Source: a virus
Reading direction: 5' to 3' (one strand)
IMG/VR virus record: IMGVR_UViG_3300025646_000125
Location: 1 to 38,675 of that record
Length of the DNA stretch: 38,675 bases
Shown: positions 1 to 10,931 of the stretch, piece after piece
Layout: every line of letters starts with the position of its first letter
Numbering within the stretch: the first letter of the stretch is position 1
Translations under genes and position numbers: made by a program
The notes under the pieces: generated by a model
What the model was told of the DNA's origin: nothing
What the model saw: only the letters and a program-made list of their open reading frames with translations
Databases searched by the model: none

Positions 1-98
1 CAATGCGCCGTCGTAAAACCTTTCATGTCTATTTTGAGACTCCAAAAGGCTTTACGGCGGGCTGTTATTTCAGTTGTGTATAATATCCTTTTATTCAT
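1..98 (-). CDS. Hypothetical protein, N-terminal part (cut by window edge)
   Basis: An open frame starts at an ATG (complement of 96-98) and runs off the left edge. It reads MNKRILYTTEITARRKAFW and onward, about 32 residues visible, basic in character. The ATG directly abuts a perfect copy of the 15-bp palindrome at 99-113, the arrangement seen at other minus-strand starts here, which supports the start. The preceding gene ends at 115. Function unknown; too little is visible for a family call. Confidence 0.55.
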   Translation of the reverse strand, partial: MNKRILYTTEITARRKAFWSLKIDMKGFTTAH

Positions 99-113
99 GT
101 TGTAATTTACAAC
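99..113. promoter_or_regulatory. 15-bp palindrome, operator-like copy 1
   Basis: GTTGTAATTTACAAC is a 7-1-7 inverted repeat directly upstream of the minus-strand ATG at 98. Related copies lie at 5763, 6544, 10917, 12676, 13402 and 13571. Repetition at gene starts and at the divergent control region suggests a site for a dimeric phage regulator. That role is inferred. Confidence 0.6.
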
Positions 114-114
114 T

Positions 115-351
115 TTATTTATTGTACACACGTTTTTTTATGTTATATTTAGCTAAATAATTGCACCTAGAAACCGCAAGTGTAATATCTGCGTATGCGC
201 TATCTAAAACTGAATGAGTTATGGTTGGTATCCAAACATGAAAATTGGGATCTTCATTAGTTCCTTCATTACTAACCCAGTATCCATTTGCATTGTGTAA
301 TATACCGAGCTTTACTTCTTCCTTAGTGCCATTTGGTTGATATTTCATCAT
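115..351 (-). CDS. Hypothetical protein, 78 aa
   Basis: A 78-residue product beginning MMKYQPNG; the start may be 351 or the adjacent ATG at 348. No signal peptide, membrane segment or known motif is visible. It contains the aromatic-rich stretch GYWVSNEGTNEDPNFHVW and a basic C-terminus (YNIKKRVYNK). It is the last complete gene of the transcript that begins with ArdA. Its leader carries a 10-bp stem (369-415) and the sequence AACTAACTAAAATTTT before the ATG, a tail shared with the leaders of the genes at 1174 and 1476. Function unknown. Confidence 0.7.
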   Translation of the reverse strand: MMKYQPNGTKEEVKLGILHNANGYWVSNEGTNEDPNFHVWIPTITHSVLDSAYADITLAVSRCNYLAKYNIKKRVYNK

Positions 352-368
352 TTCAAAATTTTAGTTAG

Positions 369-415
369 TTCCCAGCATCCGCATCAAAGGGTAGACTCTT
401 AGGCCATGCCGGGAA
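369..415 (-). ncRNA. Intergenic stem element (leader of the 351 gene)
   Basis: In minus-strand RNA, UUCCCGGCAU pairs with AUGCUGGGAA: ten pairs including one G-U, enclosing a 27-nt interior. The G-U would be an A-C mismatch on the opposite strand, so the fold favours minus-strand RNA. The stem is followed by AACTAACTAAAA, matching the 3' flank of the two three-way-junction elements at 1198 and 1514. The interior does not resemble theirs, so membership of the same family is uncertain. No U-run follows, so it is not a classical terminator. Confidence 0.45.
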
Positions 416-422
416 ATCTTTA

Positions 423-881
423 TTAATCCCGATAAAACCGAACAAAGGAAAGATCGGCTGTAAATTCAACTCGCAAAGGTTCGCCAATGCCCCAATACGC
501 GCCGCCTTTGTCGTATCCCCCTGAGTCGAGATATACGCGACGGTCGTATTTTCTAAGGTCGCCTGGATCTGGGTAACGATTATTTCTCCCCATTGGAGCG
601 CCGTATTTGGTGTTGACTTTGCAAAGGATCTGACTATAGGCGTAGTCGCTTGCGCTGATCACTTCCAATTCGTAGCCAATGTTCTCTAATTCGCGTTTTA
701 AGGCTTTGTATTCGGCTTTGGTTGCTTGCTTGGTAATTGATACTACCCAGGCATAATCAGCGCCGCCATGCTGCCCTATATGAGCGTAACAGGCAGGAAA
801 TTCGTTATTCCATTTTTCCTCCGGGAATAGGGCGATTATTTCGCCGTCTAGGTACTTTCTGAATACTGTTTTTACTTTCAT
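423..881 (-). CDS. Conserved-type hypothetical protein, 152 aa
   Basis: A 152-residue soluble protein beginning MKVKTVFRKYLDGEIIALFPE. It resembles, from memory, small uncharacterised proteins carried on Bacteroidota plasmids, conjugative elements and phages that share an N-terminal 'F+KY.DGEIIALFPE' and a central 'HIGQHGGADYAWV' stretch. The segment KAEYKALKRELENIGYELEVI is probably a helix-strand unit. The C-terminus is rich in Gly, Tyr and Asp. It starts 18 nt after the stop of the 899 gene with the A-rich leader AAAAACAGTAAAACC, almost identical to the leader of the 1174 gene. Function unknown. Confidence 0.85.
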   Translation of the reverse strand: MKVKTVFRKYLDGEIIALFPEEKWNNEFPACYAHIGQHGGADYAWVVSITKQATKAEYKALKRELENIGYELEVISASDYAYSQILCKVNTKYGAPMGRNNRYPDPGDLRKYDRRVYLDSGGYDKGGAYWGIGEPLRVEFTADLSFVRFYRD

Positions 882-898
882 GGTTTTACTGTTTTTAA

Positions 899-1174
899 TT
901 ATTTACATAACTTGTAATATCCGTCCTTATCAATCCACACACACCCATCTTCGATGGTGTTTGTCATTTTGACCAAATAAAAAACCCTGCCGGATAAAAT
1001 ATCTAATTGTGTGCCCCTATCTAATTGCAAATCAAAGCGATTATGCGAACGGGCAGCGCAATTTATTGCGTCATATACATGCTTCATTTGCTGGATCCAG
1101 TTGCCACCAGGGTTAGGAGATTCAACAAATCGTTCGCACATATTCCATAACTCCAAATCATTAAAATTTCTCAT
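899..1174 (-). CDS. Hypothetical protein, 91 aa
   Basis: A 91-residue protein beginning MRNFNDLELWNMCERF, probably helical in its first half and ending with a short beta-like segment (CVWIDKDGYYKLCK). No known motif recognised. It lies third in the ArdA transcript, directly downstream of three-way-junction copy 1 (1198-1248), whose 3' arm ends 23 nt before its ATG. A leader RNA that controls its translation is therefore possible. Function unknown. Confidence 0.75.
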   Translation of the reverse strand: MRNFNDLELWNMCERFVESPNPGGNWIQQMKHVYDAINCAARSHNRFDLQLDRGTQLDILSGRVFYLVKMTNTIEDGCVWIDKDGYYKLCK

Positions 1175-1197
1175 TGTTTTACTGTTTTTAATTAGTT

Positions 1198-1248
1198 CCT
1201 CAATCCAGGTTCAACCTATTGTACTTTGTTTTCAAGTACTGATTGAGG
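1198..1248 (-). ncRNA. Three-way-junction RNA element, copy 1
   Basis: Read as minus-strand RNA: outer helix P1 CCUCAAUC/GAUUGAGG (1241-1248 with 1198-1205); a single A; hairpin P2 GUACU/AGUAC with loop UGAAAACAA; AAU; hairpin P3 AGGU/ACCU with loop UGA; a single G; then P1 closes. Copy 2 at 1514-1566 has the same architecture and the same unpaired residues, but different bases in all three helices with pairing kept. It sits between the genes starting at 1476 and 1174. No terminator U-run follows; AACTAATTAAAA does. Not matched to any RNA family I know. Confidence 0.7.
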
Positions 1249-1257
1249 ATAGCCAGA

Positions 1258-1476
1258 CTATTCCCGATAATCGTCGTAAATTTCAATAGATGGTGTATCT
1301 CCCATGCTGATAATTATTTCACCGTACTTTTCGGCCAAATAGTTCAATTCCTCAAGGGTATTTATTTCAATAGTCCAAAACGTACGCCCATCAATGACTT
1401 TTTTTGTGGCTTCTATACATGGCCTTTCTTCGATCCAATGATAAGAGTCGGAGGTTCTTCTTATTTCATATTCCAT
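1258..1476 (-). CDS. Hypothetical protein, 72 aa, acidic
   Basis: A 72-residue acidic protein beginning MEYEIRRTSDSYHWIEERPC and ending SIEIYDDYRE. The pattern suggests a small alpha/beta fold: ATKKVIDGRTFWTIEINTLEELNYLAEKYGEIIIS reads as strand, helix, strand. Net negative charge and size resemble DNA-mimic or anti-defence proteins, and it lies directly downstream of ardA, but that is only context. Three-way-junction copy 2 lies in its 5' gap and copy 1 in its 3' gap. Confidence 0.75.
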   Translation of the reverse strand: MEYEIRRTSDSYHWIEERPCIEATKKVIDGRTFWTIEINTLEELNYLAEKYGEIIISMGDTPSIEIYDDYRE

Positions 1477-1513
1477 AGTCCTATAATTTAGATAGTTATA
1501 AATTTTAGTTAGC

Positions 1514-1566
1514 TATCTGGACCAGATTCGATCTATTGCAATCTGTTTTCAATTGCTGTCCAGATA
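1514..1566 (-). ncRNA. Three-way-junction RNA element, copy 2
   Basis: Minus-strand RNA: P1 UAUCUGGAC/GUCCAGAUA (9 bp); A; P2 GCAAU/AUUGC with loop UGAAAACAG; AAU; P3 AGAU/AUCU with loop CGA; G; P1 closes. Helix and loop lengths equal those of copy 1 apart from one extra P1 pair, while the helix sequences differ with compensatory changes. The 3' flank GCTAACTAAAATTT matches the flank of copy 1. It lies between ardA (ends 1590) and the 1476 gene. Confidence 0.7.
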
Positions 1567-1589
1567 GATTAATGACATAAATTACCACT

Positions 1590-2075
1590 TTAGAAATCCC
1601 GGAAAACGTAGCCGCCAATATAGGCGTAATCCATTTCAAGGTCACGTGCGAATTTTTCGTAGTCTATGTAATAGCGGATATGATCGGGAACGTCATGTAA
1701 ATAAACATCGTCGAACCATTGCTCGGCGTATTGCTCGAATGAATCCCACTTGCCCTGGTAGGATTCCTCGAATTTATCGAAAAGATCCGAGTCGTCGGCG
1801 TTAATTCCGTAATTATCCATAAAAGCCCCCAACGCCTCAATATCAATATCGTCGGGCATCTCCCAAAGCATCTCAGATACCCAGCTTTCGGAAATAAAAG
1901 CCGCCGGAATGTCTTCATAGTCTTGATACATGAACTCCGGGTCTTCCTCGTCTTTGTGAAGTTCGGCGCAATAGGCCAAAAAATCTTCCTTATCGGTGAA
2001 GTCGGTCAAGTCGATCCACTCTCCCGCCAAAGATCCGCAATTGTATTTGTGGTAGGTTCCGCAATAAACTTTCAT
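1590..2075 (-). CDS. ardA: ArdA-type antirestriction protein
   Basis: A 161-residue, strongly acidic protein matching the ArdA family of DNA mimics that occupy type I restriction enzymes (and often their methyltransferases) in place of B-form DNA. Family hallmarks visible: N-terminal strand and glycine turn (VYCGTYHKYNCGSLAGEWIDL, residues 3-23), the Asp-Tyr-Glu segment (YQDYEDIP), the acidic middle repeat (LFDKFEESY...FEQYAEQWFDD), and the C-terminal signature PDHIRYYIDYEKFARDLEMD. Length is normal for the family. It is first in its transcript, behind a clear promoter at 2120-2150, fitting early expression on DNA entry. Acts in the cytoplasm. The identification is from remembered family features. 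Confidence 0.93.
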   Translation of the reverse strand: MKVYCGTYHKYNCGSLAGEWIDLTDFTDKEDFLAYCAELHKDEEDPEFMYQDYEDIPAAFISESWVSEMLWEMPDDIDIEALGAFMDNYGINADDSDLFDKFEESYQGKWDSFEQYAEQWFDDVYLHDVPDHIRYYIDYEKFARDLEMDYAYIGGYVFRDF

Positions 2076-2119
2076 TTTCTTAAATTTAAAGGTTTAAAGA
2101 ATGATGTTTTAATTTATGT

Positions 2120-2150
2120 CAAAGATAGGGGAAATTTACGATATACACAA
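2120..2150 (-). promoter_or_regulatory. Promoter for ardA transcript
   Basis: On the minus strand: TTG (2150-2148), 20 nt, TATCTTTG (2127-2120), a full match to the Bacteroidota -33/-7 pattern TTG...TAnnTTTG. Same 20-nt spacing as five other promoters in this window. It is followed by a leader with AAACCTTTAAATTTAAG before the ArdA ATG at 2075. Confidence 0.8.
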
Positions 2151-2179
2151 TAGAAAAATGATAATTGTTTGAAAATACC

Positions 2180-2593
2180 CTATTTATGGTAGTTTTTATG
2201 TTCGTATAATACTTTTTTACCCTTGGCGGTTAATATCCTTACTATACAATGGTCCAAAACAGAACCGCCACCAATAGATCTTTTATTATGTATCAATATT
2301 GGTATCTTAATAGGTCCGGTTGACCTACCAATACAACCAATAATATCGTATACTTCGCCCCAACTTTTTTCTGTTTCACTATCCCCATAATCCAGTACAA
2401 TACGTTCTTTATTTATCCTTGACCACTCTAAAATATTAATAACCTTTTTGGGCGTATCAATATTGTAAAATGTACCGTTAACACTTTCAAGCGTTTTATA
2501 ATCCAAATTGCTGTTAGGTTGCTCAGTAGTGGTTGAGTAATTAAAACCCAAAGAACGGTTTTTGTCAGTACTTAAAATTTGATAATATCTCAT
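2180..2593 (-). CDS. Hypothetical protein, 137 aa
   Basis: I start it at MRYYQILSTDKNRSLGFN (ATG at 2593); the frame extends upstream only into promoter and terminator sequence. The leader AAACCTTTAAAATTTAAAAC matches that of ardA. The product is probably an alpha/beta protein: central helix (TPKKVINILEWSRINKERIVLDYG), then a segment with strands (GPIKIPILIHNKRSIGGGS) and a C-terminal strand pair. The stretch IVLDYGDSETEKSWGEVYDIIG with GPIKIPILIHN is reminiscent of small Bacteroidota mobile-element proteins, but I do not recognise the family. A terminator lies upstream at 2664-2687, so it is transcribed separately from the 2969 cassette. Anti-defence function is possible from context only. 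Confidence 0.75.
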   Translation of the reverse strand: MRYYQILSTDKNRSLGFNYSTTTEQPNSNLDYKTLESVNGTFYNIDTPKKVINILEWSRINKERIVLDYGDSETEKSWGEVYDIIGCIGRSTGPIKIPILIHNKRSIGGGSVLDHCIVRILTAKGKKVLYEHKNYHK

Positions 2594-2663
2594 TGTTTTA
2601 AATTTTAAAGGTTTAAAAATAGAAGAAAAGTAAAAAATACCAGAATAGGGTAGAAACAAAAAG

Positions 2664-2687
2664 GCCCCAACTTTTTACGGTTGAGGC
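2664..2687 (-). terminator. Cassette terminator, copy 1
   Basis: In minus-strand RNA GCCUCAAC pairs with GUUGGGGC around CGUAAAAA, followed by CUUUUUGUUU. It ends the 2969-2715 cassette. The same hairpin recurs at 3082, 3139, 3506, 3566 and 3626. Confidence 0.85.
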
Positions 2688-2714
2688 TATTCTTTGAGGT
2701 TGCGACGTCCCAAA

Positions 2715-2969
2715 TCAGTCAACCATATAAGATACGCTTAAGATCTCCCGAACGTCATTAAGTAAACATTCAAGATTGTATGGGGAAAAACACGGGGATA
2801 CGATTCTGTTATTATATTCGATCTTGTAACCACTAAGGCAAAAGTGGACCACGGAAATATCTTCAAAATGTTCTTTGGAGTTAACAACGTTTATAAAAAA
2901 ACCATAATAATGCTGGTCAAAATTCCAGCCAAGGGAAATTAACCGGTCAATAGATATACTAATTTTCAT
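2715..2969 (-). CDS. Cassette gene, hypothetical protein, 84 aa
   Basis: Start taken at MKISISIDRLISLGWNFD (ATG at 2969), because it sits at the same distance from the repeated leader motif as the starts at 3382 and 3914. An upstream extension would only translate promoter sequence. The 84-residue product contains a strand-rich middle (YYGFFINVVNSKEHFEDISVVHFCLSGYKIEYN) and a helical end (NLECLLNDVREILSVSYMVD). It forms a stand-alone unit: own promoter (3009-3039), one gene, own terminator (2664-2687). Family unknown. Small size, private promoter and neighbourhood of ardA fit an accessory or anti-defence gene, which is inference. Confidence 0.75.
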   Translation of the reverse strand: MKISISIDRLISLGWNFDQHYYGFFINVVNSKEHFEDISVVHFCLSGYKIEYNNRIVSPCFSPYNLECLLNDVREILSVSYMVD

Positions 2970-3008
2970 GTTTGAATTTTTTAAATAGTGATATAATAAA
3001 TAACACCA

Positions 3009-3039
3009 CAATAATAGTGGTAATTTCTGACATACACAA
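3009..3039 (-). promoter_or_regulatory. Cassette promoter, copy 1
   Basis: Minus strand: TTG (3039-3037), 20 nt, TATTATTG (3016-3009), one mismatch to TAnnTTTG. It is embedded in a repeated block containing CTATTGTGTATGTC upstream and GTGGTGTTATTTATTA downstream, nearly identical to the copies at 3423 and 3953. Drives the 84-aa cassette gene. Confidence 0.78.
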
Positions 3040-3081
3040 TAGAAAAGTAAAAAATACCTGAAATAGGGTAGAAACAAAAAG

Positions 3082-3105
3082 GCCCCAACTTTTTACGGTT
3101 GAGGC
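3082..3105. terminator. Cassette terminator, copy 2 (bidirectional)
   Basis: GCCCCAAC/GTTGAGGC hairpin with A5 on one side and T6 on the other, so it can work on both strands. With copy 3, 57 bp away, it ends the 3382-3182 cassette. Confidence 0.85.
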
Positions 3106-3138
3106 TTTTTTGGATTTAAACGTCCTAGAAACAAAAAA

Positions 3139-3162
3139 GCCCCAACTTTTTACGGTTGAGGC
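3139..3162. terminator. Cassette terminator, copy 3 (bidirectional)
   Basis: Same 8-bp hairpin with loop TTTTTACG, flanked by A6 on the left and T6 on the right. It lies directly after the stop of the 66-aa cassette gene and is followed downstream by copy 2. Confidence 0.87.
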
Positions 3163-3181
3163 TTTTTTGTGACCTTGCAGT

Positions 3182-3382
3182 TTATTCCCATTGTTTCCAA
3201 TTGGTCGGTAAATTGGCTTTTGCCAGATCCACGGACCAGTTCATAACTATTTTTCCGTCTTTATTCTTGGTATGCCCATATGCTGTTGGACCATAAGGAT
3301 CATTTGTGTCCACTTTGTGGACAAATAAAGATCCTTGTTCGTTTTTGCCGACGTAAATCGGCGTTTTGAAGTATTTTACCAT
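3182..3382 (-). CDS. Cassette gene, hypothetical protein, 66 aa
   Basis: A 66-residue basic, soluble protein: MVKYFKTPIYVGKNEQGS at the start and WSVDLAKANLPTNWKQWE at the end, with GPTAYGHTKNKDGKIVMNW between. It looks like a small beta-rich fold. It has its own promoter (3423-3453) and two terminators (3139, 3082). The leader from -7 box to ATG is almost identical to those of the 2969 and 3914 genes, whereas the proteins share no obvious similarity. That is the pattern expected when unrelated genes are swapped between fixed expression signals. Function unknown. Confidence 0.75.
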   Translation of the reverse strand: MVKYFKTPIYVGKNEQGSLFVHKVDTNDPYGPTAYGHTKNKDGKIVMNWSVDLAKANLPTNWKQWE

Positions 3383-3422
3383 CTGTTTAATTTTTTAAAT
3401 AGTGATGTAATAAATAACACCA

Positions 3423-3453
3423 CAATAATAAGACTTTTATTTGATATACACAA
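3423..3453 (-). promoter_or_regulatory. Cassette promoter, copy 2
   Basis: Minus strand: TTG (3453-3451), 20 nt, TATTATTG (3430-3423). The upstream block (CTATTGTGTATATC) and the further upstream TTTACTCCATCCTGGC are shared with the 3953 copy. Confidence 0.78.
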
Positions 3454-3505
3454 TAGAAAAGTAAAAATAAATAGGAAAATGCCAGGATGGAGTAAAAACA
3501 AAATA

Positions 3506-3529
3506 GCCCCAACTTTTTACGGTTGAGGC
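3506..3529. terminator. Cassette terminator, copy 4
   Basis: GCCCCAAC/GTTGAGGC hairpin inside the first 60-bp unit. The minus-strand tail is UAUUUUGUUUUU, weaker than copies 2 and 3 because U and A alternate at the start. Confidence 0.75.
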
Positions 3530-3565
3530 TATTCCCTGGGGTTGAAACATCCTAGAAACAAAATA

Positions 3566-3589
3566 GCCCCAACTTTTTACGGTTGAGGC
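3566..3589. terminator. Cassette terminator, copy 5
   Basis: Identical hairpin in the second 60-bp unit, tail UAUUUUGUUU on the minus strand. Confidence 0.75.
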
Positions 3590-3625
3590 TATTCCCTGGG
3601 GTTGAAACATCCTAGAAACAAAATA

Positions 3626-3649
3626 GCCCCAACTTTTTACGGTTGAGGC
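3626..3649. terminator. Cassette terminator, copy 6
   Basis: Identical hairpin in the third 60-bp unit, nearest the stop of the 78-aa cassette gene. On the plus strand it is followed by TATTTTG. Confidence 0.77.
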
Positions 3650-3677
3650 TATTTTGTGACCTTGCAACGGCCTAATG

Positions 3678-3914
3678 CTATCCCAAAGCTGACTCAAGGT
3701 TAAACCTTGATTTGGGATCTTTTGCAACAGCTAAAACAGATTCTTGAGCTGTCCTGTGAAACGTCTTGGTCAAGATTATTATTGCGGGCTCCCATGCCCA
3801 ATAATCATCTTTAATCATAGCTAATACCATGTTTAATTTAAGATCCGCCGGCTGACTCTTATCTCCATCCCAGCACAGACAGTCAAATTCCAATTTCATT
3901 GTTCTAGTAGTCAT
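3678..3914 (-). CDS. Cassette gene, hypothetical protein, 78 aa
   Basis: Start at MTTRTMKLEFDCLCWDGD (ATG at 3914), placed by alignment of the shared leader; MKLEF at 3899 is the alternative. The product has an N-terminal strand, a helix (PADLKLNMVLAMIKDDYW), then AWEPAIIILTKTFHRTAQESVLAVAKDP and a short tail. The layout is that of a small alpha/beta domain. It lies behind its own promoter (3953-3983) and before three tandem terminators, the most insulated of the three cassettes. Function unknown. Confidence 0.72.
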   Translation of the reverse strand: MTTRTMKLEFDCLCWDGDKSQPADLKLNMVLAMIKDDYWAWEPAIIILTKTFHRTAQESVLAVAKDPKSRFNLESALG

Positions 3915-3952
3915 TTTATTAGATTTAAATAGTGATGTAATTAATAACACCA

Positions 3953-3983
3953 CAATAATAAGAATTATTTCTGATATACACAA
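3953..3983 (-). promoter_or_regulatory. Cassette promoter, copy 3
   Basis: Minus strand: TTG (3983-3981), 20 nt, TATTATTG (3960-3953). Upstream runs the same block as copy 2, through TTTACTCCATCCTGGC at 4011-4026. Drives the 78-aa cassette gene. Confidence 0.78.
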
Positions 3984-4010
3984 CAGAAAAGTAAAAATAA
4001 ATAGGAAAAT

Positions 4011-4227
4011 GCCAGGATGGAGTAAATTTATAATACATATATATATAAGGTAGAATAGTTAGTTTAGATGTTAAACTAAGTAGATTAGTTAGTTTGGTTT
4101 GTGCACTAAGGTAGTTAGTGTAAAATATACACTAAGTAGGTTGGATCTTCAATGTAATTAATTTGATTATACTTTTTTATTTGTCACTAATTTGGTTATA
4201 TGCTGGGTAGGTTTACTCCATCCTGCC
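4011..4227. repeat. AT-rich tandem-hairpin block bounded by inverted repeats
   Basis: No gene is visible here. GCCAGGATGGAGTAAA (4011-4026) and TTTACTCCATCCTGCC (4212-4227) form 15-of-16 inverted ends. Between them, about 4060-4140 holds three roughly 30-bp units of the form AGTTAGT...ACTAAG. Units one and three are hairpins with different arms that still pair (TTAGTTTA/TAAACTAA and TTAGTGTA/TACACTAA); the middle unit keeps only TTAGT/ACTAA. The rest is very AT-rich with an alternating TATATATATA run near 4035-4050. It could be a replication origin, a structured RNA, or a cassette remnant; the sequence does not decide. Confidence 0.55.
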
Positions 4228-4519
4228 AAACAAACAAACGAGTGACCGAAAAATACAAATTAACAATTCCACCCCACATAGAGATCGCCACAAAATAAGA
4301 CACAAAGATAAGGGAGGCATAACATAAAGAATTGAATATCAATAGGTTTTAAGCCCGTCAACTTTCTACCGTAGAAAATAGGCGTATTTTTTGACGAAAA
4401 ATTGACATGCACACCCTACCCGGTTACGCCAGCACGTTCCCAAAAACGGCTTGGCATCCCACGTAAAGATATAACCCCAACCCCCCAACCAAAGCCAAAT
4501 CTAATAACAAAAGCGGCAA
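4228..4519. other. Intergenic stretch with one promoter-like box
   Basis: About 290 bp without a convincing gene. On the minus strand, TATCTTTG at 4310-4303 is a full -7 box, but no TTG lies 20 nt upstream, so any promoter is weak or activated. It would transcribe into the hairpin block at 4011-4227. A plus-strand frame from a TTG at 4402 to 4587 is open, but it opposes all neighbours and overlaps the frame described at 4520-4674; I do not count it as a gene. Confidence 0.4.
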
Positions 4520-4674
4520 TCAGAGAAAAACAAGAGCACTATAAACAGCGAAAGGAAACCCACTTTCGCAGATCTCCTTCCTTGTAATTCCATCAAAATT
4601 AAAACCCTCTATAACCCTTTTTAGTGTCCTTATTGGCGTGTAGTCATCCCAAGTATTATCTCCTCTTAGAACGG
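4520..4674 (-). pseudogene. Gene fragment or frameshifted C-terminus of the 4666-4971 gene
   Basis: A minus-strand frame without its own ATG reads LRGDNTWDDYTPIRTLKR, then VIEGFNFDGITRKEICESG and FPFAVYSALVFL before TGA at 4520-4522. Composition is protein-like. It begins where the 4666-4971 gene stops (KPF, stop), one frame away, so a single-base change near 4666-4674 would fuse the two into a 150-residue protein. Either that gene has lost its C-terminal half by frameshift, a programmed shift occurs, or this is a leftover of another gene. The segment GITRKEICESG looks like part of an HTH helix. Confidence 0.4.
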
Positions 4675-4971
4675 CTTAAAATGCGCCCTGGGTAGCCTAG
4701 CTTTGATGTACTCAATCTCCTCTTTAAGATCTCCTTCGTCCCAGCATACTTCCGGTCTTTTTAGGTGGTAATCTTTTTCCAGGAGATATTCATTGTCCTT
4801 TGCGTATAAGTCTGGACGCTTTATATGAAGAATCATTGGCCCATCTTTACCGGAATAGTATATATCAGCTATGATTGACTTATACTTTTTATTTAAGCCA
4901 AACTTGGTTATGTTGCTTGGGGTCAGATACTCCCCATTAATTGATACTCCATAAAAGTCGAAGAATGCCAT
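4666..4971 (-). CDS. Hypothetical protein, 101 aa
   Basis: A 101-residue protein beginning MAFFDFYGVSINGEYLTPSN. Strands dominate the first part (KYKSIIADIYYSGKDGPMILHIKRPD) and a charged helix the end (EGDLKEEIEYIKARLPRAHFKPF). No known motif recognised. The stop is followed in another frame by 48 further codons of protein-like sequence (4520-4674), so this may be a shortened form. The 115-bp gap upstream to the next gene contains no obvious promoter. Function unknown. Confidence 0.75.
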   Translation of the reverse strand: MAFFDFYGVSINGEYLTPSNITKFGLNKKYKSIIADIYYSGKDGPMILHIKRPDLYAKDNEYLLEKDYHLKRPEVCWDEGDLKEEIEYIKARLPRAHFKPF

Positions 4972-5086
4972 TTATTTCGTGTTACTCTAAAAGTTTAAAA
5001 CATTATTCCCGTATTGGCGCGTATCACAAAACCGAAGTCCTTCTAAAGCCGGGGTTTTACTTAACCACGCCAAATATTATTCTAAA

Positions 5087-5215
5087 TCAAGCCCTTTCTA
5101 TATCACACTCCCACCGCCAAAACCTTTGGAGGTCATCATAGAAGACATCTATTTCACCGGCTACCCACCCTTCCGAGGCAAGCATCCATCGTATATACTC
5201 TTCTACTGGCTTCAT
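5087..5215 (-). CDS. Small hypothetical protein, 42 aa
   Basis: A 42-residue frame beginning MKPVEEYIRWMLASEGWVAG and ending RFWRWECDIERA, with AGAAGG 9 nt before the ATG as a ribosome binding site. It is acidic, amphipathic and tryptophan-rich (four Trp). It follows the 20-codon frame at 5234-5296 by 18 nt. The presence of a purine-rich ribosome site and lack of long competing frames support it as real. Function unknown. Confidence 0.6.
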   Translation of the reverse strand: MKPVEEYIRWMLASEGWVAGEIDVFYDDLQRFWRWECDIERA

Positions 5216-5233
5216 AGTAGTTATGCCTTCTGC

Positions 5234-5296
5234 CTAGGGGTTATTTATCTGGTCGTTTATTTGTGTGTTTTCTCTGGTCGTTGCAAGGTTAGTCAT
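5234..5296 (-). CDS. Micro-ORF, 20 aa, translationally coupled
   Basis: MTNLATTRENTQINDQINNP followed by TAG. Its ATG overlaps the stop of the 5293-5523 gene as ATGA, the coupling used throughout this operon. The first codons include a copy of the recurrent boundary sequence CCTTGCAACGACC (5276-5292). It may be a coupling peptide rather than a functional protein. Confidence 0.4.
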   Translation of the reverse strand: MTNLATTRENTQINDQINNP

Positions 5297-5523
5297 TTGT
5301 CAAACGGCTTTATCTTCTTATTGACGCGTAATCTACTCCAAATCCGATCCCACCAAGAAGGTTTTTTCATAAAGCTACCATACGCCCAATACCCAGTCAT
5401 CTTCCCGCACTTCTTACATACTTCCTCGTACTCGCATACTATACCTGCTATGGTATCTATTACTACTTCTTTTCTTTGTTTGTGGGTGCAGAAGGTCGTT
5501 GCAAGGTTAACGAATAATTTCAT
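5293..5523 (-). CDS. Hypothetical protein with Cys cluster, 76 aa
   Basis: Start at MKLFVNLATTFCTHKQRK (ATG at 5523), which overlaps the upstream stop as ATGA; an earlier ATG at 5544 would overlap that gene more. A zinc-knuckle-like pair is visible in VCKKCGKMTGYWAYG, with a further Cys in VCEYEEVC just before, so a treble-clef or CxxC metal site is plausible. The C-terminus is basic and tryptophan-rich (KKPSWWDRIWSRLRVNKK). It could bind nucleic acid. The N-terminus carries the boundary sequence CCTTGCAACGACC as codons NLATT. Confidence 0.7.
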   Translation of the reverse strand: MKLFVNLATTFCTHKQRKEVVIDTIAGIVCEYEEVCKKCGKMTGYWAYGSFMKKPSWWDRIWSRLRVNKKIKPFDK

Positions 5524-5759
5524 TTCTTCCGTATTTCTTTCCACTCACTAACCATAGTGGCCTCAATCGATTTAATCCTGCTGTCGATGGCTGTCATTTG
5601 CTCTCGGTAGTTCATACGCATCAGATCCTTCACAAATAACAGTTCTTTGATCTGATCGTAGTAACTGTGGACGATTATAGCCCCCTTCTCCTCCTCCGTT
5701 CTTTCGCTAAAGTCTTCAAGTATATCACCATACTTCTCTCTGAATTTCTCGTAGTCCAT
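5520..5759 (-). CDS. Hypothetical helical protein, 79 aa
   Basis: Start at MDYEKFREKYGDILEDFSER (ATG at 5759), immediately after the palindrome-containing leader and AACGTT, the same layout as the methyltransferase start at 6540. The protein is almost entirely helical and charged: an N-terminal acidic helix, a central helix (YYDQIKELLFVKDLMRMNYREQMTAIDSRIKSIEATMVSEWKEI) that could form a coiled coil. No family recognised. Downstream coupling to the 5523 gene is by ATGA. Confidence 0.72.
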   Translation of the reverse strand: MDYEKFREKYGDILEDFSERTEEEKGAIIVHSYYDQIKELLFVKDLMRMNYREQMTAIDSRIKSIEATMVSEWKEIRKK

Positions 5760-5762
5760 AAC

Positions 5763-5777
5763 GTTACAATTTACAAC
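5763..5777. promoter_or_regulatory. 15-bp palindrome, operator-like copy 2
   Basis: GTTACAATTTACAAC overlaps the last codons and stop of the methyltransferase gene and ends 3 nt before the ATG at 5759. The same palindrome plus AACGTTATG arrangement is found at 6540. Confidence 0.6.
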
Positions 5778-6540
5778 AATGTTTAGAAATCCTATCAACG
5801 GCCACCTTGTATATCTCGTCATCTAGTTCCATACCGATAGCTTTGCGACCAGTATTATACGCGGCAATCAGGGTAGTGCCAGATCCCATTGTATTATCCA
5901 ATACTGTATCGCCAGGATCAGTGTACGTCCTGACAAGATACTCGCACAAGGCTACCGGCTTCTGGGTGGGGTGGAGCGCACTCTTTTGTATGTCCTTCTT
6001 AAATGTTAAGATAGAGGTAGGGAAACGCTCAGTACTGTCGTAGTCTTTTATATTCTCTAATTGTTGCGCTCCATAAGAGTAATGCTCTTTATCGTTTATC
6101 CTTTGCGCTGCATCTCTTCTGTTTTTAGCGGAAGCGGATTTCCTCGGATGCCCATCAGTCTTCTGTGGATTGTATACTGGAGACTTTTTATAGAACACCA
6201 GGATGTCTTCGTGCGCCCTCAGTGGCATCCTATTGGCGTTTAAGAACCCGGAAGGATTTGTCTTGTGCCACACCAGGGAGTAGCGAAACATCTTCTCGTT
6301 GCTGAGGATGAGCTTTGCGCTAAAGATTCCCTGGCCGAAGAGGACTATCGCTCCGTTGTCTTTGATGATCCTCTTATACTGCTTCCACAGTTCATCCAGG
6401 TCGATCACGCTATCCCACTTGTTTCTCGTAACCCCATACGGCAGATCTGCCAGTATCATGTCTATAGTTCCATCCTCTATGCTTTCCATTAGAGTTAGGC
6501 AGTTTCCTTTGGCCGTTGCAAGGTTTCCGATTACATTCAT
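5764..6540 (-). CDS. DNA methyltransferase, N4/N6 class (beta order)
   Basis: A 258-residue S-adenosylmethionine-dependent DNA methyltransferase. Start at MNVIGNLATAKGNCLTLMES (ATG at 6540), just downstream of promoter and palindrome. The catalytic motif IV is DLPYGVT (residues 32-38), a D-x-P-Y form used for amino-group methylation of adenine or cytosine. The SAM-binding motif I with flank lies at the C-terminus (TVLDNTMGSGTTLIAA, about 212-227). The order IV then I defines the beta class. No target recognition domain is obvious beyond the central insert (YNPQKTDGHPRKSASAKNRRD). No restriction gene is adjacent, so it is an orphan enzyme, most likely protecting phage DNA. The extreme C-terminus (HCCKL) is encoded through the palindrome at 5763. 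Confidence 0.93.
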   Translation of the reverse strand: MNVIGNLATAKGNCLTLMESIEDGTIDMILADLPYGVTRNKWDSVIDLDELWKQYKRIIKDNGAIVLFGQGIFSAKLILSNEKMFRYSLVWHKTNPSGFLNANRMPLRAHEDILVFYKKSPVYNPQKTDGHPRKSASAKNRRDAAQRINDKEHYSYGAQQLENIKDYDSTERFPTSILTFKKDIQKSALHPTQKPVALCEYLVRTYTDPGDTVLDNTMGSGTTLIAAYNTGRKAIGMELDDEIYKVAVDRISKHCCKL

Positions 6541-6543
6541 AAC

Positions 6544-6558
6544 GTTATAATTTACAAC
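6544..6558. promoter_or_regulatory. 15-bp palindrome, operator-like copy 3
   Basis: GTTATAATTTACAAC lies between the -7 box (6558-6565) and the methyltransferase ATG at 6540, thus over the expected transcription start. A bound regulator here would block the promoter. Confidence 0.65.
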
Positions 6559-6588
6559 AAAGATAAGAAAACTTTCAACCATAAACAA
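6558..6588 (-). promoter_or_regulatory. Promoter for the methyltransferase gene
   Basis: Minus strand: TTG (6588-6586), 20 nt, TATCTTTG (6565-6558): full match to the Bacteroidota pattern with the spacing used at ardA. It overlaps the 3' end of the 6575-6757 gene. The leader is only about 15-20 nt and is filled by the palindrome. Confidence 0.8.
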
Positions 6589-6757
6589 GTTGAAGGAACA
6601 ATAAAGAGATGAAAGATGAGAAGTATGTAAAGGTTAGAAGAAACACCACTGTACCATATTCATCAATTCCAGTCTCTTCAGTGACAGCATCACCCAGCTT
6701 CAGGGAGAAGACAAAGACGGCTATCGTGATCAGGGTTATTACTGCTAGGGTTTGCAT
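6575..6757 (-). CDS. Small membrane protein, 60 aa, two TM segments
   Basis: MQTLAVITLITIAVFVFSLK forms a first hydrophobic segment (about residues 3-19), a short charged loop follows (LGDAVTEETGIDEYG), then a second segment (TVVFLLTFTYFSSFISLLFLQLVYG). Two helices with a short acidic loop fit a hairpin inner-membrane protein. Holin-like function is possible but the endolysin gene is 5 kb away. The boundary sequence CCTTGCAACGACC ends 3 nt before its ATG. Confidence 0.65.
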   Translation of the reverse strand: MQTLAVITLITIAVFVFSLKLGDAVTEETGIDEYGTVVFLLTFTYFSSFISLLFLQLVYG

Positions 6758-6772
6758 GTGGTCGTTGCAAGG

Positions 6773-7090
6773 TTAGTGATTCTTGTTTCTATTAATGCGC
6801 TCGCGAGTCTTTCTTATCTTTTCTCTGTACTCATCTAGCTCATTGGCATCTAGGTTGTATGCGTCATTAAAAGCAGATTGGTGCGCTTTAAATGCTTCAC
6901 TCCGTTCCATCCCAAGTATTTCAAACATCTTACTCGGACTAACTTCTTCCATGTCTACCGCTGGAAGCAATGCCGGAAGAGTGTCCCATGCGCCTCCAGA
7001 TCCATTAGCCGTGAATGTGAACAAGAACCCTTGTCCACCATCTGTAATTAACGCTCCCCAGGTATTGTCTTTTCCTATGTATGCTTTCAT
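6773..7090 (-). CDS. Hypothetical protein, 105 aa
   Basis: Begins MKAYIGKDNTWGALITDGGQ; the glycine-rich first half (GFLFTFTANGSGGAWDTLPAL) looks beta-stranded, the second half is helical and basic (LDANELDEYREKIRKTRERINRNKNH). PSKMFEILGMERSEAFKAHQSAFNDAYN may be an amphipathic helix pair. No known motif. The ATG at 7090 directly follows the boundary sequence ATTGCAACGACC (7091-7107). Function unknown. Confidence 0.7.
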   Translation of the reverse strand: MKAYIGKDNTWGALITDGGQGFLFTFTANGSGGAWDTLPALLPAVDMEEVSPSKMFEILGMERSEAFKAHQSAFNDAYNLDANELDEYREKIRKTRERINRNKNH

Positions 7091-7103
7091 GGTCGTTGCA
7101 ATG

Positions 7104-7166
7104 TTAGCCTTTTTCCATATTCTTCAGGTGTTCCTCCGAGAACTTTTCAAACCAGGAGTCTTTCAT
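7104..7166 (-). CDS. Micro-ORF, 20 aa
   Basis: MKDSWFEKFSEEHLKNMEKG then TAA. Its ATG overlaps the stop of the 7163-7324 gene as ATGA. It would form one charged amphipathic helix. Coupling supports translation; function unknown. Confidence 0.42.
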   Translation of the reverse strand: MKDSWFEKFSEEHLKNMEKG

Positions 7167-7324
7167 TTTAACATGTCTTTTAAAAAGTCAACAAAAAGGC
7201 CGGTCAAAAAAATAGGCCATAGCAATGATGTGAACAGAAACAATACCCCGTCAACATCTCCCTTCGTTCTAAACACCACGGCTACCATGATCCCGATAAT
7301 AAGATAAAGTAAAACGTAAATCAT
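7163..7324 (-). CDS. Small membrane protein, 53 aa, two TM segments
   Basis: Begins MIYVLLYLIIGIMVAVVF (first TM), then the loop RTKGDVDG, then a second hydrophobic stretch (VLFLFTSLLWPIFLTGLFVDFL) and KDMLK. The ATG overlaps the upstream stop at 7321 as ATGA and the TGA overlaps the next ATG, so both ends are set by coupling. A two-helix membrane hairpin downstream of a secreted protein could be holin- or spanin-related; not recognisable as either family. Confidence 0.6.
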   Translation of the reverse strand: MIYVLLYLIIGIMVAVVFRTKGDVDGVLFLFTSLLWPIFLTGLFVDFLKDMLK

Positions 7325-7641
7325 TGCTCGATAAGTTTTTTCAGTTTGTAGAAGTCAGACTCTTCCGGCTTTATCACTTTGTAGCGGATGCGCCTGACAT
7401 ACTCCTCGTACTGTAAGCAATCCCGGCAGATCCGTTCGATACCTTTGTTGTTGCTTGTTTCGTGCAGGTTGACGGTAGTTGGCTTGTATACCCAGTCGTG
7501 ATCGCAGTTAAGGTTTCCTTCATGCCAGATGATCGTCTGGTGTATGGTGTCCCACTGGATGATCATCTCCGGTGGGGGTGGTACCGTTTTCTGCGCTAGA
7601 GAAAAGAACGGTATCAGTATCAGTATTGCTGCGTATTTCAT
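7321..7641 (-). CDS. Secreted protein with Cys motif, 106 aa
   Basis: The N-terminus MKYAAILILIPFFSLAQ is a Sec signal peptide with cleavage expected before or after Q17, typical of Bacteroidota. The mature part starts with a proline run (TVPPPPEM) and contains LNCDHDWVYKP and ERICRDCLQYEEYVRR; the Cys, His and CxxC residues could form a zinc site or disulfides. The end is helical and charged. Exported to the periplasm. It may act on the envelope or bind a host factor; no family recognised. ATGA links it to the genes on both sides. Confidence 0.78.
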   Translation of the reverse strand: MKYAAILILIPFFSLAQKTVPPPPEMIIQWDTIHQTIIWHEGNLNCDHDWVYKPTTVNLHETSNNKGIERICRDCLQYEEYVRRIRYKVIKPEESDFYKLKKLIEQ

Positions 7642-7796
7642 GCCGGTATCACTATTGCACCAGGGTACTTACTTGCAACGATCTCAGCATCCTGGTAGTT
7701 ATTGAATTTTTTGGCTATTGCTTTTACTGGGGTCCAATGAAGGATCAGCAGGTCATCTATGTAATACATGCCCGGTTCCTTCATTACCAGCCACAT
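7638..7796 (-). CDS. Hypothetical protein, 52 aa
   Basis: MWLVMKEPGMYYIDDLLILH at the start, then a helix (WTPVKAIAKKFNNYQDAEIVASKYPG) and the end AIVIPA. Reads as a compact beta-alpha-beta domain. TGATG overlap with the upstream gene and ATGA with the downstream gene fix both ends. Function unknown. Confidence 0.65.
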   Translation of the reverse strand: MWLVMKEPGMYYIDDLLILHWTPVKAIAKKFNNYQDAEIVASKYPGAIVIPA

Positions 7797-7987
7797 CACT
7801 TTACCTTTTCAAAGTCAGAGGATGCCACATAGTACTTCTCTGTATCCTTCTGCGCCATGTAAATGAATTGCTTTGCACCACCAATGACTTCCGTTTCTTT
7901 TACTGAGATCATAGTCACAACATCGCCAATGTTGAAATCGTGCATAGAGTCATTTTTGATTATCCTTACTTTGTCTCCAACTCGCAT
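7796..7987 (-). CDS. SH3/KOW-like small protein, 63 aa
   Basis: MRVGDKVRIIKNDSMHDFNI begins a pattern of short strands with VGDKV and IGDVV turns, as seen in KOW or SH3-like beta barrels that bind nucleic acid or proteins. The rest (VVTMISVKETEVIGGAKQFIYMAQKDTEKYYVASSDFEKVK) continues alternating strands. Similar small barrels are common in phage early regions. It overlaps the upstream gene by 22 bp. Specific role unknown. Confidence 0.72.
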   Translation of the reverse strand: MRVGDKVRIIKNDSMHDFNIGDVVTMISVKETEVIGGAKQFIYMAQKDTEKYYVASSDFEKVK

Positions 7988-8232
7988 AGTATTCCTATTT
8001 TAACTCTAACAATCATTAGGTGGTTTCTCAATGGCTCGTCAGGCTCAAGCCCTAATTTGTAGCGGCCATAGTAAGACATATCCAGCCACTTCTCTGCTAC
8101 TTTAATAGAGGTAGTCCCCAGAAAAGGCTTACTACTCCGTTCGTCTTTGTGCACCAAGTATCTCTTCTTGATAGTTCCTCTTGCCACGAACTGACGATCC
8201 TTTGACATTATCACAAATACTTCACGAACCAT
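7966..8232 (-). CDS. Hypothetical basic protein, 88 aa
   Basis: Start taken at MVREVFVIMSKDRQFVARGT (ATG 8232); a TTG at 8250 would be next to the upstream stop and is possible. The protein is basic and strand-rich (VARGTIKKRYLVHKDERSSKPFLGTTSIKVAEKW), followed by a helix and a C-terminal strand (LMIVRVKIGILCELETK). No known motif recognised. Overlaps the 7987 gene by 22 bp. Confidence 0.68.
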   Translation of the reverse strand: MVREVFVIMSKDRQFVARGTIKKRYLVHKDERSSKPFLGTTSIKVAEKWLDMSYYGRYKLGLEPDEPLRNHLMIVRVKIGILCELETK

Positions 8233-8246
8233 ACCTGAATAAAGTA

Positions 8247-8420
8247 TCAATCTCGTATGTTTTCATCACAGTATTCTCTCATTATATTTAGTATGGTTTG
8301 TTTTGCCCATCCTACGGACATCAGCGCACCAACAAGGGCGTACATTAACTGTTCTCCGTCGGTTTCTTCTGGTAGTTCTACTTTTACTGCCACTCCGTAG
8401 TTTTTGATTTTTATAACCAT
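8247..8420 (-). CDS. Hypothetical protein, 57 aa
   Basis: MVIKIKNYGVAVKVELPEET begins a strand pair, followed by a helix (GEQLMYALVGALMSVGWAKQTILNIMREYCDENIRD). A beta-hairpin plus helix domain. It overlaps the upstream gene end (8411) by 10 bp. Alternation of strands and the coupled position support translation. Function unknown. Confidence 0.65.
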   Translation of the reverse strand: MVIKIKNYGVAVKVELPEETDGEQLMYALVGALMSVGWAKQTILNIMREYCDENIRD

Positions 8421-8986
8421 CTTACGCTGTAATCTTTTGCTGGGTATTCTTTGTAGAACGCTTCCACTGAATCGTCCTTGTCAAACGCCGCCAGGTATCC
8501 TGCTGCATCTCTGTTGTGTACTACCTTGGCTACGTTGAGTCCGAAAACAGAGTGCTCTTCGGCAAGCCTTCTCATAAAGATACTGAATGTGCGTTCGTGG
8601 GCAATCTTCGAGTTGTGATGATCCCATACGTGCGTCCATCCGTTCGTGAAGAGTCCCTGTATTGCCGCGTCAATTTGCCTGGTGGTGCGGCCCGACGCTT
8701 TGTTAAAATACTGATAGTAGTTATTCTCTCCCCAGTCGTCAATCAACTTCTTAGCCCACTGTTTTACTTTAGAACCATGATAGGCATCGAGCGCATTAGT
8801 AAACGATTCAATGATCCCCTCGTTTGTCGCGCTTCCAAAGTAATATCCAGTATCAGCACCGCTGACGTAATGATACACCTTCCCTTTGTAGATGGCCCAA
8901 GGCTGTCCGGCTGCTTCAAACTTTTTATTGGCGCGTACATCTTTCAGGTAACTTTCTCCAGACTTGTTGAACTTAACGATCTTCAT
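8411..8986 (-). CDS. Hypothetical protein, 191 aa
   Basis: One of the larger left-arm proteins. It begins MKIVKFNKSGESYLKDVRAN and has a strand-rich N-terminal third (GQPWAIYKGKVYHYVSGADTGYYFGS), then helices (SFTNALDAYHGSKVKQWAKKLIDDWG), a Gln/Arg segment (ASGRTTRQIDAAIQGLFTNGWTHVWDHHNSKIAHERTFSIFMRRLAEEHS) and a C-terminal helix-turn (AKDYSVRWL). The WDHH cluster could be a metal site, but no catalytic pattern is certain. It lies between the SLOG gene and a run of small genes. Function unknown. Confidence 0.78.
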   Translation of the reverse strand: MKIVKFNKSGESYLKDVRANKKFEAAGQPWAIYKGKVYHYVSGADTGYYFGSATNEGIIESFTNALDAYHGSKVKQWAKKLIDDWGENNYYQYFNKASGRTTRQIDAAIQGLFTNGWTHVWDHHNSKIAHERTFSIFMRRLAEEHSVFGLNVAKVVHNRDAAGYLAAFDKDDSVEAFYKEYPAKDYSVRWL

Positions 8987-9401
8987 TTAATCCAAGTTTT
9001 TCTACCGCATACCAAAGATCCGCAAACTTATTGGGCTGATCAATCCTCACAACCCTTACGCCCAGGCCAAGCTTCTTAGCGGTATCAATCATATTTTTAG
9101 TTCCTCTACTCTTCCCATCCCAGAACGCCAGTAAGCCGTCCGCATATTCGGCCATGTCTCTGTTCCTGACTGGACCGCCAGCCTTGCCAAAAGCACGGAT
9201 ATACGGAAACGACTTTACCGGCCATCCTTTATATCTGGCAAATTCCTCTCCTAGTTTGTCTACTCCTCTACAGCCTCCGCTTACTATTTCAATGTTCTCT
9301 TTATTGGAGAGATACCATATTGCTGCGCCGAATACTACTCCTCTGTTGGTGTAGTGTCTTGATCCGGCTATTATTAGTTTATACGGTCGTTGCAAGGTCA
9401 T
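8973..9401 (-). CDS. SLOG-fold protein (DUF2493/YspA-like)
   Basis: A 142-residue Rossmann-like protein with the SLOG superfamily pattern: first strand and GSR turn (YKLIIAGSRHYTNRG, residues 7-21), the glycine-rich nucleotide loop VSGGCRGVDKLGEEFA (40-55), RNRDMAEYADGLLAFWDGKSRGTKNMI (79-105), and a C-terminal AKKLGL segment. Such proteins bind nucleotides or nucleotide-derived ligands; phage copies are of unknown role, and some SLOG proteins act in defence signalling as sensors or sponges. It overlaps the upstream 21-aa frame by ATGA. Its first codons contain the boundary sequence CCTTGCAACGACC. Confidence 0.88.
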   Translation of the reverse strand: MTLQRPYKLIIAGSRHYTNRGVVFGAAIWYLSNKENIEIVSGGCRGVDKLGEEFARYKGWPVKSFPYIRAFGKAGGPVRNRDMAEYADGLLAFWDGKSRGTKNMIDTAKKLGLGVRVVRIDQPNKFADLWYAVEKLGLNEDR

Positions 9402-9463
9402 CGAGTTACAAGGATCAGGATAATCACCGCAACAATTAGGACGTATATGTATTGGTCACGCAT
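9398..9463 (-). CDS. Single-TM micropeptide, 21 aa
   Basis: MRDQYIYVLIVAVIILILVT plus Arg: one hydrophobic helix with charged ends. Coupled by overlap at both ends (ATGCGTGA upstream, ATGA downstream), so translation is likely. It may be a membrane-acting peptide. Confidence 0.5.
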   Translation of the reverse strand: MRDQYIYVLIVAVIILILVTR

Positions 9464-9629
9464 GATCTAAACAGATTAAGATTTTATCGTCTTCTTCTTT
9501 AACCTCTCTTACAACATAAGTGCCGGTAATCAAATGGACAGTCACCCCTTTCATCGGGTAGTTAAACTCGTCCTTGTGCGGCATCCATACTTTGACACCG
9601 ATGGGCATTTGGTAATATACTCTAGCCAT
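9456..9629 (-). CDS. Hypothetical beta-rich protein, 57 aa
   Basis: MARVYYQMPIGVKVWMPHKD, then a strand-rich middle (YPMKGVTVHLITGTYVVREVKEEDDKILICLDHA). A small barrel-like domain is likely. ATG lies inside the last codons of the MazG-like gene and the end overlaps the next start. Function unknown. Confidence 0.65.
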   Translation of the reverse strand: MARVYYQMPIGVKVWMPHKDEFNYPMKGVTVHLITGTYVVREVKEEDDKILICLDHA

Positions 9630-10062
9630 ATCGCTCCTGTAGTTTTTTGATGTTTGCGTCTAAAGCTACTTGAGCGTCAATGTTTAGGATACTAGCAAGA
9701 ACCATCCAAGAATGCGTAAGTACGCCAAGCTTCCTTTTCTCTACACAATCCTGAATCACACTAGCGTAATGAATCAAGAACTTGAGATTACTATTGTCGG
9801 TATCAATGAATGGCTTGACTTCTTCTACATATAGTTCTCTACCAAGAACAGAATGCCACACAGCAATATACCACATGCCGTCTGCCCACTCTTCGGCCAG
9901 GTTGTCTTTGAACCGTTGTGGCGTGAAGATCTTCTTCTTCATTGCATCCACGATCTCGCCGTACTCGCCAAGGATACCGGCTTGCAGGTGGAGGATATTC
10001 TTCTCTCGATCTCCTGAATCGAGGAAGGTCTTTGCGGCTAAGTCTTTGTATTTGTTATTCAT
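9622..10062 (-). CDS. MazG-like nucleotide pyrophosphohydrolase
   Basis: A 146-residue all-alpha protein with the MazG metal-binding pattern: LGEYGEIVDAMKKK (E33 and E36 with D39) followed by AEEWADGMWYIAVWH (E57, E58, D61). These acidic residues bind Mg2+ and hydrolyse an NTP or dNTP to NMP and pyrophosphate. Phage MazG-type enzymes are thought to adjust host nucleotide or alarmone pools. Length is that of single-domain phage versions. It starts 8 nt inside the end of the upstream coiled-coil gene, indicating coupling. Confidence 0.85.
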   Translation of the reverse strand: MNNKYKDLAAKTFLDSGDREKNILHLQAGILGEYGEIVDAMKKKIFTPQRFKDNLAEEWADGMWYIAVWHSVLGRELYVEEVKPFIDTDNSNLKFLIHYASVIQDCVEKRKLGVLTHSWMVLASILNIDAQVALDANIKKLQERYG

Positions 10063-10195
10063 CTTTCACGCCAATTTTGGAGTACGACAATCTCCGCTTC
10101 TCGGCTTCTCTTGTCTTGCGGATCTTCTCTTCTGCTTTACGCTTCTTGTCTTCTTCGATCTTCTTTGCTCTTGCTACTTTGTCTTCAGGTGTCAT
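10055..10195 (-). CDS. Charged helical protein, 46 aa
   Basis: MTPEDKVARAKKIEEDKKRK followed by AEEKIRKTREAEKRRLSYSKIGVKDE: one long, highly charged helix or coiled coil. It overlaps the MazG-like gene start by 8 bp. Function unknown; the basic helix could bind RNA or a partner. Confidence 0.62.
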   Translation of the reverse strand: MTPEDKVARAKKIEEDKKRKAEEKIRKTREAEKRRLSYSKIGVKDE

Positions 10196-10245
10196 GGTTG
10201 TTGATTTAGTTAGTGCCGACCGGAAACCCAAGGAGCACCATTGCT

Positions 10246-10899: not shown

Positions 10900-10916
10900 G
10901 CAATATACGATTTAAT

Positions 10917-10931
10917 GTTGTAAATTACAAC
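10917..10931. promoter_or_regulatory. 15-bp palindrome, operator-like copy 4
   Basis: GTTGTAAATTACAAC, exact match to the best copies. It abuts the stop codon of the 10931-11107 gene and precedes the ATG at 10899. Confidence 0.62.

Follow-up and report, generated by a model that had tools for sequence, protein, structure and literature searches.

Paired three-way-junction RNA elements with fixed loops and covarying stems ahead of start codons in a phage antirestriction operon

Two intergenic elements in the antirestriction operon of a virus fold as RNA into the same three-way junction, and the differences between them lie almost entirely in stems whose pairing is kept. Element 1 (1197-1249) and element 2 (1514-1566) are read on the minus strand, and the window analyzed here is the whole 38,675-base IMG/VR virus record that carries them. 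Comparison of the two copies supports selection on the RNA fold; the elements likely have a role in cis, and they probably represent an undescribed control element for viral genes. We propose, at a probability of roughly 0.4, that they are cis-acting operators read through their loops by a phage-specific trans-acting factor, which would tune translation or processing of the next gene. To our knowledge, little is known about post-transcriptional control in Bacteroidota phages, and the combination of free stems and fixed loops at starts in antirestriction operons makes these elements a candidate RNA family.

The terminase encoded in the window is about 33% identical to Flavobacterium and Cellulophaga phage terminases, which points to a Bacteroidota-type tailed phage, with close relatives apparently absent from the collections searched. 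The minus strand carries genes across positions 1-13,400, and a single transcript headed by the antirestriction gene ardA (1590-2075, minus, 161 aa; PF07275, E 1.2e-29) is predicted, because the only exact match to TANNTTTG on that strand between 1 and 2800 lies just ahead of this gene. The match is a predicted Bacteroidota minus-7 box, TATCTTTG (2120-2127, minus), with TGTG 18 nt upstream and ardA about 50 nt downstream. After ardA the transcript would carry, all on the minus strand, a 72-aa gene (1258-1476; phrog_11889, E 6.5e-8), a 91-aa gene (899-1174), a 152-aa gene (423-881) and a 78-aa gene (115-351; phrog_20712, E 2.7e-20). The elements had been placed in the ArdA transcript by an initial annotation of this DNA, and the lone box ahead of ardA supports that placement. 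The ardA gene is followed by element 2, the 72-aa gene by element 1 and the 152-aa gene, which itself has no element before it, by a third hairpin. No function was assigned to the 72-, 152- and 78-aa genes, and a search for relatives of the 91-aa protein was empty. Distant relatives of the 72-aa protein (about 42% over the aligned parts) occur in many Staphylococcus phages, and a DNA methyltransferase gene is located near the operon. The proteins encoded after elements 1 and 2 are unrelated to each other, so that the element seems to be retained independently of the gene.

Folding of element 1 (1248-1198) as RNA gave -17.6 kcal/mol (z -4.4) and that of element 2 (1566-1514) gave -17.2 kcal/mol (z -4.3), no shuffled sequence equalling either value. 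The strand that gives the junction common to both is the minus strand, which is also the coding strand of the neighboring genes; plus-strand RNA folds less well, and copy 2 takes another shape there. When folded as DNA, a similar junction forms from either strand; as RNA, the sense strand alone gives one fold for both copies. In element 1, P1 (UCCUCAAUC/GAUUGAGGA) is followed by a single A, then by P2 (GUACUU/AAGUAC, loop GAAAACA), AA, and P3 (UAGGU/ACCUG, loop UGA). Element 2 has the same plan, with P1 UAUCUGGAC/GUCCAGAUA, P2 GCAAUU/GAUUGC under the same GAAAACA loop, and P3 UAGAU/AUCUG with loop CGA. P1 comprises 9 bp (10 in copy 2), P2 6 bp and P3 5 bp with a YGA loop, and P3 is stacked directly on P1, the junction strands being A and AA. 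The initial annotation had described two elements of common plan here, which folding of the minus strand confirms, and the exact pairing adds to its description a U-A pair in P1, a sixth pair in P2 and a U-G pair in P3. Both elements lie a few nucleotides past stop codons, and the distances of 23 and 37 nt that had been given to the next start codons are correct.

The main evidence for selection on the fold comes from comparison of the two copies. Across 53 aligned columns there are 22 differences, 21 of them in the 40 paired columns and one in the 13 unpaired columns. Ten of the 20 pairs are changed on both sides (seven in P1, two in P2 and one in P3), one U-A pair has become U-G, and none is broken, in agreement with the earlier claims that all three helices differ with pairing kept and that the unpaired nucleotides are nearly identical. 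Random placement of 22 substitutions yielded at most 7 double changes in 200,000 trials, against the 10 observed; with positions fixed and bases randomized, 10 double changes were reached in 71 of 200,000 trials; permutation of the observed letters left zero broken pairs in 3 of 200,000; a shuffle control gave 0 of 500; and sliding the partners by 1-3 columns destroyed the pairing. Furthermore, eight Watson-Crick flank pairs around a core of element length are found at only 6 of 77,230 positions of the window (both strands), four of which are expected from the two elements read on both strands. Compensated changes therefore exceed the randomized, permuted, shuffled and slid controls, which upholds the selection on an RNA fold that had been suggested. 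The loops are fixed while the stems vary, all differences in paired columns being compensated, and this argues for recognition of the loops or of a tertiary structure.

Each element is followed directly by a RCTAAYTAAA leader (1187-1196 for element 1 and 1504-1513 for element 2, both minus) and then by a start codon. The same order is found at the third hairpin (369-415, minus; z -3.0 with flanks), which has P1 UUCCCGGCAU/AUGCUGGGAA, stands ahead of ACTAACTAAA and the start of the 78-aa gene, and has its leader at 360-369 (minus); its interior is unrelated to elements 1 and 2. The motif has four matches in the window against 0.41 expected, a figure that, like the other enrichment figures given here, is exploratory, since the window holds only two copies and the few analogues were picked up once the motif was already defined. 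The fourth match lies behind a hairpin at 10240-10211, which was considered as a tRNA remnant and dropped, having no model support. A tRNA-Tyr (GTA) at 11370-11288 occupies an element-like slot, directly before a related leader, AACTAACTTTAAAAC, and the start of a small gene. RCTAAYTAA also precedes starts without structure in Bacteroidota phages, and the leader is therefore best seen as a translation start feature. Hairpins before RCTAAH showed no bulk enrichment when compared with scrambled motifs, and the generic three-way-junction shape is not special by itself. Of 104 noncoding three-way junctions, 7 are followed by CTAA at an offset between -2 and +3, whereas other 3-nt bins hold 0-2 cases each; chance probably explains two of the seven.

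More sequence copies in related phages, for which the initial annotation had proposed a search, were found neither by patterns nor by blastn nor by a covariance model (R1). Four patterns gave chance matches only against viral contigs, one pattern run against genome contigs returned 84 stretches of which none formed the element helices, and a Cellulophaga-type pattern had no match in 298 genomes (order of a Flavobacteriaceae genome). Comparison of both elements with phages by blastn gave chance matches only. The covariance model gave matches at chance level, both in phage records bearing ArdA or the 152-aa gene and in about 1,200 Bacteroidota genomes, and its best match (contig L212, 32.8 bits) was rejected because it lies inside coding sequence.

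The initial annotation had also proposed a look next to ardA-like genes; in other phages, in part directly behind ardA, look-alikes of like plan with other loops turned up, and no sequence copies. These candidates came from screening other phage contigs by structure for a junction hairpin ahead of RCTAA, and they share across phages an anatomy in which a junction hairpin leads to RCUAAY and a start codon. Cellulophaga phages phi18:3, phi13:2 and phi46:3 have two such elements apiece, preceding RCUAAUU and a start. The first lies behind ardA in phi18:3 (junction 20420-20375, minus, starting 12 nt beyond the end of ardA, with ACUAAUU and a start behind it) and in phi13:2, and behind another gene in phi46:3. 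It is identical in all three phages at 45 of 46 positions, compared with 37 of 64 in the flanks, and its P3 is likewise stacked on P1 with no linker between; AGGAACTAATTAA stands at the 3' end of both element 1 and the phi13:2 element. The second, upstream of the first, is found at about 22555-22488 (minus) in phi18:3 (contig L249), at 1347-1414 in phi13:2 (L252) and at 579-646 in phi46:3 (L253), and GCUAAUUAA follows it. Between the two Cellulophaga copies the loop UCGCUA is kept, and changes at four P1 pairs and one P3 pair leave the pairing intact; in the second copy the apical P3 pair is broken, and P2 is different and much larger. The minimum-energy fold of the second element differs from the drawn junction (-14.4 versus -13.8 kcal/mol), and that of the first element of phi13:2 also departs from it. 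The P2 arm of the second element contains an additional inner hairpin, AUACCU/AGGUAU, and in phi13:2 this element heads a gene group.

Two further pairs are less certain. In contig L013 there is a clean junction at 9110-9153 (z -2.4 by itself, -3.9 when the flanks are included) together with a less clear hairpin at 6519-6568, immediately after ardA, and AGCGAAA occurs in both. In contig L133, CUAAA starts are preceded by two junction hairpins, at about 1342-1387 and 2267-2306, which score weakly in folding and whose loops disagree. Within one phage the loops are mostly the same (GAAAACA, AGCGAAA and UCGCUA, each found twice), whereas other phages have other loops. The hairpins of the Cellulophaga phages, L013 and L133 are analogues in plan and place, not established kin of elements 1 and 2. 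The conserved fold and its position in the window are accompanied, then, by recurrence of the plan in other phages.

In the operator model that we favor, elements 1 and 2 would be paralogous cis-acting RNA operators in one polycistronic mRNA starting ahead of ardA. Each junction, with P3 on P1, would present the fixed GAAAACA, AA and YGA directly 5' of the A-rich start region RCUAAYUAAA...AUG. A trans-acting factor, probably encoded by the phage and specific to its lineage, would read the loops of all copies in one phage, and its binding would jointly alter how the following genes are translated or processed. What we infer here is that the elements act on the gene downstream, that such a factor exists, and which way its effect goes. 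That loops agree within a phage but not across phages points to a partner specific to each phage. The position immediately ahead of starts speaks for control of the following gene, in hosts that tune initiation through mRNA structure around the start and through adenines upstream of it, and not through Shine-Dalgarno pairing (PMC6847099). The Cellulophaga pair, in an unrelated lineage, repeats the arrangement, also where the preceding gene is not ardA (phi46:3). Against the operators speak the lack of bulk enrichment of hairpins before RCTAAH, the presence of RCUAAY at unstructured starts as well, the broken apical P3 pair in one Cellulophaga copy, the disagreeing L133 loops, and the lack of a sequence relative outside the window in the searches described above. 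Such elements occur in Cellulophaga phages phi18:3 and phi13:2, which can be cultivated, so that this kind of control is open to direct testing.

The initial annotation had listed both cis-regulators and processing sites; position and the recurrent plan in other Bacteroidota phages fit either role. Processing is the main rival because a tRNA occupies the same slot. The hairpins would then be punctuation for processing or stability, cut at or shielded from ribonucleases, with each downstream gene on its own mRNA from near RCUAAY; in a tRNA-like version, the coaxial P1/P3 stack would mimic the acceptor and T-arm. We regard this as possible, if rather unlikely. It accommodates the tRNA-Tyr with its following leader and start, the linker-free P3/P1 stack that elements 1 and 2 share with the Cellulophaga element, and the location of the elements a few nucleotides behind stop codons. 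However, a host ribonuclease leaves the loop agreement within phages and the difference between them unexplained. Neither ARAGORN nor RF00005 called the elements as tRNA or tRNA-like RNA, even at permissive thresholds, and arm lengths differ, P1 having 9-10 bp and P3 5 bp with a 3-nt loop, as opposed to a 7-bp acceptor and a 5-bp T-arm with a 7-nt T-loop.

It is improbable that the hairpin is a passive insulator which merely frees the start region from upstream pairing or blocks readthrough effects. The dependence of Bacteroidota initiation on structure near the start and on upstream adenines (PMC6847099) and the structurally unrelated third hairpin in the same slot are consistent with insulation, but fixed loops are not needed for it. 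Moreover, predicted start openness was unchanged, being 0.57 for element 1 against 0.54 and 0.55 with the element removed or shuffled, and 0.42 for element 2 against 0.50 and 0.51.

A role as DNA, at a recombination or exchange boundary or as a protein-binding cruciform for shuffling accessory genes, seems highly improbable. Conservation of the Cellulophaga element despite a different preceding gene in phi46:3, and the similar folding of single-stranded DNA from either strand, would suit it; yet every copy is oriented in the gene sense before a start, the copies share an RNA fold on the sense strand only, U-G changes pair only there, and the stems differ between two copies of one genome, which hence offer no recombination homologies. 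The initial annotation also raised decoys for host defence RNAs or proteins. The antirestriction operon and the nearby DNA methyltransferase gene might suggest such a decoy or mimic, working in trans, but this is hardly credible given the absence of any CRISPR, tRNA or other RNA family match, a fixed placement ahead of start codons that a decoy does not require, and a phi46:3 element without adjoining ardA.

As an extension of the operator model, a widespread and undescribed class of start-associated three-way-junction RNA operators may exist in Bacteroidota phages. Each phage would have a loop code of its own, common to all its copies, and its own factor to read it, which would unite early accessory and anti-defence genes at scattered sites into a post-transcriptional regulon; we hold this broader proposal to be doubtful.

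Other repeats and hairpins were observed in the window. The word AACCTTGCAACGACC (TTGCRRCGACC) has 19 matches with at most one mismatch against 1.6 expected, among them 5276, 5494, 6511, 6760, 7091 and 9385 (minus) and 16740, 24080 and 36835 (plus); it is often near gene starts, in some cases noncoding just before ATG and in others read as NLATT in the first codons. The hairpin GCCTCAACCGTAAAAAGTTGGGGC occurs six times between 2660 and 3660, as terminator-like punctuation separating small genes that have upstream repeats in common; on the minus strand its tail is rich in U. Three tandem repeats of about 31 nt at 4056-4142 have short inverted-repeat stems that vary (TTAGTTTA/TAAACTAA, TTAGTGTA/TACACTAA) and CTAACTA words inside. 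A long, very stable hairpin (1-63, z -5.5), with no clear U run, stands past the 78-aa gene, where the ardA group ends.

A search of Rfam 15 left the elements unmatched at the gathering score over the whole window and up to E 5 in 300-1700, in line with the initial statement that no RNA family of this shape was known and that a hammerhead core is absent; hammerhead and other small ribozymes were rejected, no Rfam ribozyme family being matched. Intrinsic terminators were rejected because A-rich ACUAAUUAAAA or GCUAACUAAAA follows, with no U run, and the stems are not G+C-rich. An integron attC site, an idea taken from the element-gene-element order, was discarded since the flanks, inspected by eye, have no paired RYYYAAC/GTTRRRY boxes. 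Within the collection of papers searched, none on such elements in Cellulophaga phages was found.

Among known systems, tRNA-gene spacers in polycistronic transcripts resemble the elements in the slot, here occupied by tRNA-Tyr, and in the coaxial P1/P3 stack; they differ in that the elements have no tRNA model match, other arm lengths and no T-loop. The promoter early stem-loops (PeSL) of T4-type phages (cited in PMC4503421) are likewise small intergenic stem-loop cassettes of accessory phage regions, but there the stem-loop is joined to an early promoter, whereas elements 1 and 2 have no nearby minus-7 box, the lone exact one on the coding strand (1-2800) being at 2127; PeSL cassettes were rejected on this ground. 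Closer are the start-associated sequences (SAS) and their extended form (ESAS), described in Cluster K mycobacteriophages (PMC3203893); Microbacterium phages have motifs like them (PMC7302621). In the Cluster K phages some of the non-structural genes have a short conserved motif in the translation start region, which in about half of the cases is immediately preceded by an inverted repeat, and the repeats are common to one phage group and different among groups; the third hairpin, like elements 1 and 2, similarly lies upstream of a start-associated RCTAAYTAAA. However, SAS is defined by a 13-bp GGGATAGGAGCCC at the ribosome binding site, with a Shine-Dalgarno core, and ESAS adds 17-bp inverted repeats whose sequence is conserved and whose departures do not support RNA pairing, which was judged unlikely, their function being unknown (PMC3203893). 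Our elements, with a RCTAAYTAAA leader, stems that share almost no sequence while keeping their pairing, and a three-way junction, are not SAS/ESAS members. The T4/RB69 gene 43 operator (PMC3014915) is a leader hairpin tens of nucleotides before the start, with loop and hairpin top conserved, and elements 1 and 2 correspond to it in having a leader hairpin near the start with a conserved loop and a free stem. It is a simple hairpin of 16-18 bases, in single copy and bound by the product of its own gene, unlike the two three-way junctions ahead of unrelated genes described here, which are at most candidate members of the gene 43 type. The nearest system in organization is SAS/ESAS, and the nearest in supposed action the T4/RB69 gene 43 operator.
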